The notes under the pieces are model-generated. The model saw nothing but the letters and a program-made list of their open reading frames with translations, did not search any database and had not been told where the DNA came from. Shown piece by piece: positions 13,810 to 17,990 of a stretch of 64,000 bases of DNA. Position numbers and translations under genes: made by a program. Within the stretch, counting starts at the first letter, position 1, and the number at the start of each line of letters is the position of its first letter. The stretch comes from an uncultured Bacteroidota bacterium (GTDB lineage: Bacteria; Bacteroidota; Bacteroidia; Chitinophagales; Chitinophagaceae): the NCBI GenBank assembly GCA_903851465.1, contig CAINOI010000013.1, positions 1-64,000 of the forward strand, read 5' to 3'.

Positions 13810-16218
13810 TTATTTTCTTATTGCTGCTTGAATATTTTTTTCAAATGCGGCTATTAATTTTTTCATCATCCCGTCAATCTCAGTATCCGTTAAAGTAGCC
13901 GACCCTGCATTGAAGACAAAATTAATCGCGACCGATTTTTTATTCACCCCCAATTTATCGCTTTCAAAAATATCAAATACACGCGTCTCTTTCAAGCCAT
14001 CTAACTGGACAGTTTTGATTGCCTGTTCAATGGCAGCATATGGGACTGACTGGTCTATTACTAAAGCAAGATCTCTTTCGACAGATGGATATTTAGAAAT
14101 CTCTTGGTATTTGACTGTGCTAGATTGAAATGCCTTGAATAAGGTAGCAAGATCAAAATTTAAATACGCAACCGCTTGTTTGATGTCAAATTGAGCTAAT
14201 TTTTTGCCGCCCACTAATTCAATTGTACCAAGGACGGTCTTCCCTGCAATCACTTCGAACTGCCCTTGCCCAATTGGATTCCAATTGATTTTTTTCAACC
14301 CTAATAATTCACAAATAGCCAAGGCAAGTCCTTTTAGAACAAAGAAATCTTGCTCAGCCGCTTTTAGCCTCCAACTATCTTGCACTTGTTTACCTGAAAG
14401 ATAGATGGCTAAAACTTTTTGTTCCTGATATTTTCCTGCAGCCGTCTTGGCATATATTTTGCCCATTTCAAAGAAAGAGATGGACTCGTTTTTTCGATTG
14501 TTATTATAGGCGATGGTCTCTAAGCCTGTTTCCAACATGGTTGGTCGCATTACATCTAAATCTGCGCTTAAGCTATTCAACATTTTAACAGTTGTCTCTA
14601 ACTGTGCTTCGGAATAATATTTGCTATTGGTAATAGAGTTCGTTAAAATTTCTGTGTACCCACGACCTACTAAATAGTTGGCAATTTTATTTTTAAATTG
14701 CTCTTTTGTTTCTAGTAAATCCACCGAAGGACTAATTGTGATCGCCGTTGGAATTTCAATATTATCTAAACCATCTATGCGTAAAATCTCCTCTACTAAA
14801 TCGGCTGCAATGCTTATGTCAGGCTTATTGTAAGGCACTGCTACTTGAATACTTTCAGCATCTTGATGCAATAGTTCAAAACCTAAACTTGTTAAAATTG
14901 CTACAGCTTTATCAGCTGCATATTGCTTACCACTTAATTTTTTTAAATAGGCAAATGTCATAACGACTTTCACTTTCTCTGCAGGACTTGGATACACATC
15001 TACTACCTTGCTACATTTACCACCCGCAATTTCCTGAATCATTGCTGCCGCTTTCTCTAATACTTTAACCGTATTTGCTATATCAACTCCTTTTTCAAAA
15101 CGGGTGGCTGCATCTGTTCTCAAACCGTGGTGCACAGATGTTTTACGAATATGTACATTTTCAAACCATGCACTTTCTAAAAAAATGGAAGTTGTTATTG
15201 GCGTTACTCCACTATGTAACCCGCCAAAAACACCGGCGATACATAAAGGTTTTTCGGTATCACAAATCATTAAATCTTGTGCAGTTAATTTTCTTTCTTT
15301 TTCATCCAATGTGGTGAACAAGCTGTCTTGTGGACATTTTTTCACTACAATCTTTTTCCCTTTTATTGTTGCTGCATCAAAAGCATGCAATGGTTGACCA
15401 GTCGCATGTAAAATGAAATTGGTGATATCTACGATGTTATTGATAGAACGTGCACCAATGGCTTGTAATTTATTTTTTAACCATACAGGAGATGGACCCA
15501 CTTTTACACCTTCAATCAAGATACCACTATACCTTGCACAGGCTTCTGCATTTTCAATCACCACCTCCAATGGAGCAATGGCGGCATCGATGCTTGGCAC
15601 TTGATTCAATGGGCTAATTGGTTCCGCTTTATTGCTATGGTAAGTCAAATAGGCGCATACATCTTTTGCGACACCATAATGACTCATTGCATCCATCCTA
15701 TTTGGTGTTAACCCTATTTCAAAAATCCAATCTTGGTAATCATCATATAATTCTGCAACCGCCGCTCCTACTTGAACTGACGGCTCTAACACCATAATGC
15801 CCGCATGGTCTTCACTTAAACCAATTTCATCTTCTGCGCAAATCATCCCTTCACTTTCTTCTCCTCTAATTTTAGCCAATTTCATAGTGATTGGCTCCCC
15901 AGCTTTTGGATAAATGGTTGTGCCTACTTGGGCCACTACCACTTTTTGTCCTACGGCTACATTGGATGCACCACAAACAATATGCAATGGTCGATCTCCG
16001 CCCACATTCACTTTAGTTAGTTTTAATTTATCTGCATTGGGATGTTGAGCTACTTCAAGCACTTCTCCCACCACTAGGCCTTGTAGTCCACCTTTAAACT
16101 TTTCGAACATTTCTAAGGATTCAACTTCTAAACCTATAGATGTCAATATGGTAGATAAATCTTCTTTGGGAATGGGAGCTGGTAAATATTCACACAGCCA
16201 GCGATAACTAATGGTCAT
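13810..16218 (-). CDS. pheT: Phenylalanyl-tRNA synthetase beta subunit
   Basis: PheT partners with PheS to charge tRNA-Phe. At 802 residues it has the full domain set: an N-terminal tRNA-binding/EMAP-like domain (VVGEVLEVAQHPNADKLKLTKVNVG, VCGASNV), B3/B4 editing region (RSINNIVDITNFILHATGQPLHAFDA), B5, the catalytic-like core (ILTNSITNSKYYSEAQ) and the C-terminal anticodon-binding FDX domain (YPSVERDLALVIDQSVPY). PheS is not nearby, so alpha and beta genes are split. It is divergent from dnaB across a repeat-rich 200-bp gap. Confidence 0.97.
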   Translation of the reverse strand: MTISYRWLCEYLPAPIPKEDLSTILTSIGLEVESLEMFEKFKGGLQGLVVGEVLEVAQHPNADKLKLTKVNVGGDRPLHIVCGASNVAVGQKVVVAQVGTTIYPKAGEPITMKLAKIRGEESEGMICAEDEIGLSEDHAGIMVLEPSVQVGAAVAELYDDYQDWIFEIGLTPNRMDAMSHYGVAKDVCAYLTYHSNKAEPISPLNQVPSIDAAIAPLEVVIENAEACARYSGILIEGVKVGPSPVWLKNKLQAIGARSINNIVDITNFILHATGQPLHAFDAATIKGKKIVVKKCPQDSLFTTLDEKERKLTAQDLMICDTEKPLCIAGVFGGLHSGVTPITTSIFLESAWFENVHIRKTSVHHGLRTDAATRFEKGVDIANTVKVLEKAAAMIQEIAGGKCSKVVDVYPSPAEKVKVVMTFAYLKKLSGKQYAADKAVAILTSLGFELLHQDAESIQVAVPYNKPDISIAADLVEEILRIDGLDNIEIPTAITISPSVDLLETKEQFKNKIANYLVGRGYTEILTNSITNSKYYSEAQLETTVKMLNSLSADLDVMRPTMLETGLETIAYNNNRKNESISFFEMGKIYAKTAAGKYQEQKVLAIYLSGKQVQDSWRLKAAEQDFFVLKGLALAICELLGLKKINWNPIGQGQFEVIAGKTVLGTIELVGGKKLAQFDIKQAVAYLNFDLATLFKAFQSSTVKYQEISKYPSVERDLALVIDQSVPYAAIEQAIKTVQLDGLKETRVFDIFESDKLGVNKKSVAINFVFNAGSATLTDTEIDGMMKKLIAAFEKNIQAAIRK

Positions 16219-16240: not shown

Positions 16241-16248
16241 CAAAAATA
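16241..16248 (-). promoter_or_regulatory. Promoter -7 element for pheT
   Basis: TATTTTTG on the minus strand fits TAnnTTTG and ends 22 nt before the pheT ATG. It lies about 20 bp from the first of the DnaA-box-like repeats. Confidence 0.45.
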
Positions 16249-16268
16249 CTATTTTATGTTTAAATAAC

Positions 16269-16301
16269 CCGTGAATAACCTATGAATAACCCGTGAATAA
16301 C
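16269..16301 (+). repeat. Three 11-bp tandem direct repeats with DnaA-box-like core
   Basis: The units CCGTGAATAAC, CTATGAATAAC and CCGTGAATAAC follow each other without a gap at exactly 11-bp spacing. Read on the other strand the core is GTTATTCACGG, one base from the DnaA box TTATNCACA. A poorer fourth unit (GTTTAAATAAC) lies directly before them. The 11-bp period puts all copies on one face of the DNA helix, as expected for an array of protein sites. Confidence 0.8.
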
Positions 16302-16336
16302 TGTATTTTTAATGTGCAAATCCCCTTAAAACCGGC

Positions 16337-16345
16337 TGTGAATAA
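16337..16345 (-). promoter_or_regulatory. Perfect DnaA-box match upstream of dnaB
   Basis: TGTGAATAA on the plus strand is TTATTCACA on the minus strand, a full match to the DnaA box TTATNCACA. It falls over the expected -33 region of a TAAATTTC (16360-16367) -7-like element in front of dnaB, so bound DnaA could block or tune dnaB transcription. Confidence 0.55.
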
Positions 16346-16418
16346 GCCTATTGGATAATTAAATTTCGAGATGCCGAATTTTGAAGGGATTTTCGCAGTA
16401 AGAAAAGCAAGTACCATT

Positions 16419-17990
16419 ATGGCCCTACCAAACCTCAATACAAGATCAACAACGAGAAAAAAAACTAGTTCTGTAGATGTGAGTGCCATGATGTATGGAA
16501 AAATTCCACCTCAAGCAAGAGAACTTGAAGAAGCCATTCTTGGTGGCATTCTATTAGAGAAAAGTGCATTTGATACTGTATCAGAAATATTGAAGCCGGA
16601 ATGTTTTTATGTAGAAGCGCATCAAATGATTTTTCAATCGATGCAGAGCTTACAACAAAAAAACATGCCTATTGATATGTTGACTGTTGTAGAAGAATTA
16701 AAAACGCGTGAGTATTTGGATCAGGTTGGAGGGGCTTATTATATTTCTAAACTAACCAATGTCGTTGTTTCTACTGCAAATATTGATGCACATTCCAAGA
16801 TTGTGTTGCAGAAGTTTATTCAAAGAGAATTGATAAGAATAAGTGGTGAAATTATTAGTAACTCCTACGAAGACAGCACAGATGTTTTTGACTTGTTGGA
16901 TGAGAGCGAAACAAAAATGTTCAACATCACCAATAATTACCTTAAGAAAAACTTTGTTGACATTGGTGAAGCTTTAGCAAAATCAATTACACGTATTGAC
17001 GAATTAAGAACCAAAAAAGAAGAAATTTCTGGTGTGCCGAGTGGATTTAATTCATTAGATCGAATCACTTTTGGATGGCAACCAACGGATTTGATTATCT
17101 TGGCTGCACGACCTTCTGTAGGTAAAACTGCTTTTGCATTGAACCTCGCGCGCAATGCTGCATTGCATCCTACAAAGCCTCAAGGGGTAGGCTTTTTTAG
17201 TTTGGAGATGAGCGCCTCTCAGTTAGTGCAACGTATTTTAAGTGCGGAGAGTGAAATTAAAATGGAGAAAATTTCGAGAGGTAAATTAGAAGATTACGAA
17301 TACCAACAATTACATACCAAGGGCATCAATAGACTAGAGTCTGCCCCAATCTATATTGACGATACTGCTGCTTTAAATATTTTTGAATTTAGAGCAAAAG
17401 CAAGAAGACTCGTTCACAAACACGATGTTAAAATTATCATCATTGACTACTTACAATTAATGAGTGGGTCGGGTGATAGAAATTCAAATAGAGAACAAGA
17501 AATTAGTAATATCTCTCGAAGTTTAAAAGCTTTGGCAAAAGAACTGAATGTGCCTATCATCGCCTTGTCTCAGTTGAGTCGTGCGGTGGAAACCAGAAAA
17601 GAAAGTAAGATGCCGCAATTGAGTGATTTACGTGAATCTGGTGCAATTGAGCAGGATGCGGATATGGTGATGTTTATTTACAGACCAGAGTATTATGAAG
17701 TAATGAGCAATGAGATGGGCGAAAGCACTATGGGTGAAACGCATATCAGGATTGCGAAACACAGAAATGGCTCATTGGATTTAATTAAACTGAGAGCCAG
17801 ATTAGATGTACAGAAATTCGAAGAATGGGATGGAGATACTGGTATACCTGGGCTAAGTAATAATTATAAACCCATCTCTGCAAACCTAGGTGGAGGCGAT
17901 ACTCAAGATGGTGGAAGATTTTTTATTCAAGGAAGTAAAATGAATGGCGGAGAATTTGATGATGATTTAAACGAAGATCAACAATTCTAA
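16419..17990 (+). CDS. dnaB: Replicative DNA helicase DnaB
   Basis: DnaB is the hexameric helicase that opens the fork. I prefer the ATG at 16419 (MALPNLNTRSTTRKK, 523 aa); the ORF-track start adds 16 residues with no family support. The N-terminal domain (PPQARELEEAILGGILLEKSAF) is followed by the RecA-like motor with Walker A ARPSVGKTAFALN, Walker B IIIIDYLQLM and the motif SQLSRAVETR. There is no intein. It heads a likely operon with rsmE (9 nt downstream). DnaA-box-like repeats lie upstream. Confidence 0.97.
   Translation: MALPNLNTRSTTRKKTSSVDVSAMMYGKIPPQARELEEAILGGILLEKSAFDTVSEILKPECFYVEAHQMIFQSMQSLQQKNMPIDMLTVVEELKTREYLDQVGGAYYISKLTNVVVSTANIDAHSKIVLQKFIQRELIRISGEIISNSYEDSTDVFDLLDESETKMFNITNNYLKKNFVDIGEALAKSITRIDELRTKKEEISGVPSGFNSLDRITFGWQPTDLIILAARPSVGKTAFALNLARNAALHPTKPQGVGFFSLEMSASQLVQRILSAESEIKMEKISRGKLEDYEYQQLHTKGINRLESAPIYIDDTAALNIFEFRAKARRLVHKHDVKIIIIDYLQLMSGSGDRNSNREQEISNISRSLKALAKELNVPIIALSQLSRAVETRKESKMPQLSDLRESGAIEQDADMVMFIYRPEYYEVMSNEMGESTMGETHIRIAKHRNGSLDLIKLRARLDVQKFEEWDGDTGIPGLSNNYKPISANLGGGDTQDGGRFFIQGSKMNGGEFDDDLNEDQQF

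Follow-up and report, generated by a model that had tools for sequence, protein, structure and literature searches.

Organisation of the pheT-dnaB intergenic region

The window, a 64,000-nt stretch of DNA from a Sediminibacterium-like Chitinophagaceae genome, carries a gap of 200 bp between the divergent genes pheT and dnaB (Table 1). The start of dnaB was placed at the ATG at 16419, and not at the in-frame upstream ATG at 16371, because relatives are conserved from the former methionine onward; an automatic annotation starting at the upstream ATG could take the dnaB promoter into the gene.

Table 1. Genes, DnaA boxes and putative promoter elements of the pheT-dnaB region, in window coordinates; offsets are counted from the putative dnaB -7 element.
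Feature	Sequence	Position	Strand	Remarks
pheT, phenylalanyl-tRNA synthetase beta subunit		13810..16218	-	divergent neighbour of dnaB
putative pheT promoter -7 element	TATTTTTG	16241..16248	-	perfect TAnnTTTG match; conserved
DnaA box 1, distal	TTATTCACG	16270..16278	-	1 mismatch; offset -118
DnaA box 2	TTATTCATA	16281..16289	-	1 mismatch; offset -107
DnaA box 3	TTATTCACG	16292..16300	-	1 mismatch; offset -96
degenerate DnaA box	ATTTGCACA	16313..16321	-	2 mismatches; offset -75
promoter-proximal DnaA box	TTATTCACA	16337..16345	-	perfect; offset -51, recurrent across the family
conserved element near -33 of putative dnaB promoter	TAAATTTCG	16358..16366	+	inferred
putative dnaB -7 element	GATTTTCG	16388..16395	+	counterpart of the family's TATATTCG; inferred promoter
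dnaB, replicative DNA helicase		16419..17990	+	Pfam DnaB N and C domains; start from conservation

The initial annotation had described three contiguous 11-bp repeats and a perfect DnaA box in this gap, and both were confirmed by a repeat search and by the coordinates of the single 9-mers. Specifically, three 17-nt copies (16263-16279, 16274-16290 and 16285-16301; identity 100%, 88% and 100%) follow one another in steps of 11 and 11 bp, and the 9-mers that they contain, all on the minus strand and separated by 2 bp, each differ from TTATNCACA at one position, so that a mismatch is present in three of the four window boxes. The weaker fourth unit, proposed to follow after 16301, is not a box at that place; the degenerate one lies at 16313 instead, and is a better match in some relatives. 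The whole window holds three perfect DnaA boxes, and the pheT-dnaB gap is its densest cluster. When the 200-bp gap was shuffled 5000 times with its dinucleotides preserved, no shuffle gave at least four minus-strand boxes within 80 bp and three shuffles gave three. A genome scan for box clusters, which had been suggested, found the 17-mer core nowhere but at this locus when up to 2 mismatches were allowed across the 1.91 Mb of the genome. The tight pair TTATNCACN-N2/3-TTATNCAY was likewise present a single time, in the pheT-dnaB gap.

As regards other signals, a sigma-70 promoter scan and a terminator scan gave no matches; for the former, this is what is expected of Bacteroidota promoters. An RNA element in the gap was rejected, as the one Rfam match, to the animal microRNA mir-1743, was below threshold (30.8 bits, the cut-off being 100) and was treated as chance, and so was an imperfect inverted repeat (16306-16331/16379-16404). 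The -7 consensus of Bacteroidota is TAnnTTTG (PMC8748976). The window's own -7 reads GATTTTCG, and the conserved TATATTCG of the family is close to this consensus; the -7 and -33 elements were assigned to a putative dnaB promoter solely by such similarity.

Conservation of the boxes upstream of dnaB

The 350 bp upstream of dnaB were compared in 70 thinned members of the Chitinophagaceae. On the minus strand, perfect boxes numbered 41 against 0.9 expected, and boxes with at most one mismatch 200 against 23.5, while the plus strand held one perfect box. At least two boxes precede dnaB in 58 of the 70 family members, so that the array, for which a comparison with relatives had been proposed, proved to be conserved; only one box, or no box at all, is present in some relatives (L042, L096). 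Over the rest of the approximately 13 kb around dnaB, box density differed little from background, apart from a slight second increase close to dnaX. In addition, a de novo search of the same 70 regions returned TGTGGAT as the top enriched 7-mer (34 sequences against 1.3 expected), which belongs to TGTGGATAA, the reverse complement of the classical box TTATCCACA. The fifth, middle position of the box, which is the tolerant one, varies between T, A and G in the closest relatives (TTATTCACG, TTATACACG and TTATGCACG), and the core is kept. All together, DnaA boxes are present in the dnaB promoter region beyond chance.

Outside the family the signal is weaker and its strand bias is lost: 20 genomes of other families in the order gave 6 perfect boxes against 0.5 expected, on both strands, and a class-wide sample of 29 genomes gave 10 boxes upstream of dnaB against 0.6. 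On this sequence comparison the boxes at dnaB look older than the Chitinophagaceae, and the phased array on one strand is a trait of that family.

Many relatives also have a recurrent plus-strand TTNTGCACA-like site that borders the array on its upstream side, at an offset of about -171 from the -7 element; it lies at about -260 to -345 upstream of dnaB in L049, L057, L069, L073, L076 and others.

A transcription factor other than DnaA, recognising a TGTGNATAA-like motif, might bind these sites, given that a near-identical site is possible for a different factor and that binding by DnaA is deduced from sequence. We regard this as unlikely: the motif that was learned without any prior is the DnaA box, tolerant fifth position included, and the same box is used at the likely replication origin of the genus, described below.

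Helical phasing and register with the putative dnaB promoter

The spacings between neighbouring boxes of the same strand peak at 11-12, 21, 32 and 41-43 bp. Among 55 strictly thinned sequences, the best period was 10.5 bp, with a statistic of 7.36, where 1000 randomisations reached at most 3.38; the relatives being non-independent, this value does not amount to a formal probability. A first spacing test on the 20 order-level genomes, which contained too few pairs, had shown no period. In the window's closest clade the first three sites fall at 0, 11 and 22, whereas the wider clade to which it belongs has them at 0, 21 and 32; the strict 11-bp tandem is therefore a local form of a helical rule that holds more generally. 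The strict 11-bp period originally proposed thus holds for the window and its closest clade, but not for the family, where the helical period is 10.5 bp.

The boxes were then aligned on the putative promoter in 41 of the 70 sequences, namely those in which a -7-like element was found by pattern. Their offsets from the -7 element peak at -50/51, -62, -73/74, -93/95, -104 and -115/116, and the peaks are also present in 32 strictly thinned sequences. The offsets of the five boxes of the window, counted from 16388 (Table 1), match those of the family. In conclusion, the array and the putative dnaB promoter are in register with each other.

The array and the origin of replication

The window's own genome is a draft of 75 contigs, and GC skew was therefore taken from sampled stretches of two closed relatives, G010 and G017. 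In G010 the cumulative minimum lies at about 950.0 kb, with dnaB at 1414.6 kb and dnaA at 1812.4 kb; in G017 the minimum lies at about 2279-2280 kb, with dnaB at 2636.8 kb and dnaA at 0.5 kb. The region upstream of ppiD maps to 949.5-950.03 kb in the former (L161 4515-5030, G010:C1) and to 2294.1-2294.6 kb in the latter (L172 14098-14577), about 15 kb from the skew minimum of that genome. It contains DnaA boxes, a conserved GTTAATTAAC and a TAATAGTAGTAGT-like DnaA-trio run that is kept across the genus. In the 1.2 Mb sampled from the two genomes, at least four boxes within 150 bp were found upstream of ppiD in both and upstream of dnaB in G010, and nowhere else. The chromosomal origin of the genus is thus likely to precede ppiD, coinciding with the skew minimum or lying close to it. 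In the window's genome this region is cut by a contig break, ppiD being 259 bp from a contig end (G000:C73:1-258). The nadD-ybeY gap of G017, an early candidate, was dropped as it has no DnaA boxes.

With the likely origin so placed, dnaA is about 0.76-0.86 Mb away from it in the closed relatives, which fits the earlier remark that origins of Bacteroidota are often not beside dnaA. The skew minimum, which the initial annotation had proposed to look for near the array, lies instead 340-465 kb from dnaB.

A side observation concerns an identical tight double box, TTATTCACGCATTATCCAC, found in four genomes, G017 (L273, G017:C1:2265917), G011, G003 and G120; the G017 copy is near the origin, between asnS and a SusC-type gene.

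A cluster of boxes at 340-465 kb from the origin could be a site of DnaA titration or nucleotide exchange of the datA/DARS type, which would buffer free DnaA and be located at dnaB incidentally; titration sites remote from oriC have been described for DnaA (PMC12371093). Such a site would need neither a promoter register, nor a single orientation, nor a link to one gene, and all three are observed; moreover, the boxes per site are few. Titration, which had been offered as one function of the array, may occur as a side effect, but it leaves the promoter register unexplained and as the main function it appears improbable.

That the array is a second or alternative origin, or a part of oriC, is very unlikely. 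In its favour, DnaA boxes are clustered next to a replication gene where the gene strands locally diverge, and the initial annotation had considered an origin-linked site; against this, the skew minimum and an origin with DnaA boxes and a DnaA-trio-like run are elsewhere in both closed genomes, the pattern used found no unwinding element of the DnaA-trio type beside the boxes in any of the 70 regions upstream of dnaB, and skew inside the window follows gene strand.

A putative DnaA operator of dnaB

The boxes could in principle serve pheT, the distal one being roughly at the -33 position expected for the putative promoter of pheT. Nevertheless, the 13 loci without pheT in the examined flank have 3.0 boxes per locus against 2.8 in the rest; as this density persists where pheT is elsewhere, the boxes belong to dnaB, with whose -7 element they are in register, and a pheT operator was rejected as highly improbable.

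Our preferred reading, to which we assign a probability of about 0.78, is that the repeats are an operator of dnaB. DnaA would bind a row of boxes of the same orientation, all on the same side of the helix and directly preceding the -33/-7 promoter, and would adjust dnaB transcription, so that the supply of helicase is tied to the amount of the initiator or to its nucleotide state. Control of dnaB by DnaA had already been put forward as a possibility. The link of the boxes to dnaB is borne out by their conservation, by their phasing to the putative promoter and by their persistence at loci without pheT, whereas DnaA as their binder is deduced from the motif. The DnaA encoded by the host is compatible with this role, having N-terminal, ATPase and C-terminal DNA-binding (Bac_DnaA_C) domains, the last intact and with the box-reading motif FGGRDHTTV.

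As to the sign of control, activation, through a contact of DnaA with RNA polymerase, is probably likelier than blocking, as the boxes precede the -33 element and share its helical phase; the centre of the proximal box is about 60 bp before the expected dnaB start site. Class I activators, such as CRP of E. coli, likewise have their sites upstream of the core promoter, in helical steps and on the face of RNA polymerase. The placement at dnaB is similar, although DnaA belongs to another protein family and activation is here a prediction.

Boxes were also seen at two other genes. Conserved boxes precede mraZ, the head of the dcw division cluster, in the window's own genome (L290, G000:C72) and in L275, L276, L279, L281 and others; nearly all members of the genus have one box, in many of them TTATCCACA, about 188 bp upstream and another at about 95 bp. 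AAGTGG repeats nearer to mraZ may be the sites of MraZ itself, so that only the distal boxes suggest DnaA. L041, L045, L048 and L066 have two boxes just before dnaX, one of them perfect (TGTGCATAA) and the other weaker, approximately 3520-3605 bp past the start of dnaB; the window has no DnaA box at the corresponding place. Tentatively, the DnaA of Chitinophagaceae might be a face-of-helix activator with a small regulon, comprising the promoter-locked dnaB array and mraZ, perhaps also dnaX. If this were true, one initiator would set helicase supply and division together.

Relation to known systems and significance

DnaA sites before dnaB are of a known kind. In M. tuberculosis, DnaA binds upstream of dnaB (Rv0057 region), away from oriC, and a dnaA mutant that binds less at this site also under-expresses dnaB (PMC7738170). 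The likeness lies in a DnaA site upstream of the replicative helicase gene and away from oriC; the phylum is another one, and the consulted passages of that source describe no phased, promoter-locked array. Similarly, dnaB expression in C. crescentus is DnaA-dependent, with predicted DnaA boxes upstream (Hottes et al. 2005, as reviewed in PMC8203912), in a further phylum and with no conserved helical phasing described in the consulted passages of the review. In E. coli, DnaA prefers in vivo boxes that are 2-3 bp apart, that is, 11-12 bp from start to start (PMC11317965). The double boxes at purH, polA and mutH/DARS2 reported there resemble in spacing the three window boxes, 2 bp apart, but they have other target genes and are pairs, whereas the arrays described here are rows of at least three boxes of one orientation over 50-100 bp.

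The open-licence literature searched yielded no paper on DnaA boxes at the dnaB gene of Bacteroidota, and the phased, promoter-locked array in this phylum appears to be undescribed there. To our knowledge, replication control in Bacteroidota has been little studied. The dnaB array is real, conserved and an unusually clean comparative case, and it adds Bacteroidota as a third phylum with DnaA sites preceding dnaB, beside those of Mycobacterium and Caulobacter. In addition, the likely origin of the genus is now assigned to the region before ppiD, with dnaA about 0.8 Mb away. The natural set of spacings in the family can be used to test a face-of-helix action by DnaA, and the promoter-locked array, extending across the Chitinophagaceae, would represent a directly testable link between the initiator and the supply of the helicase.
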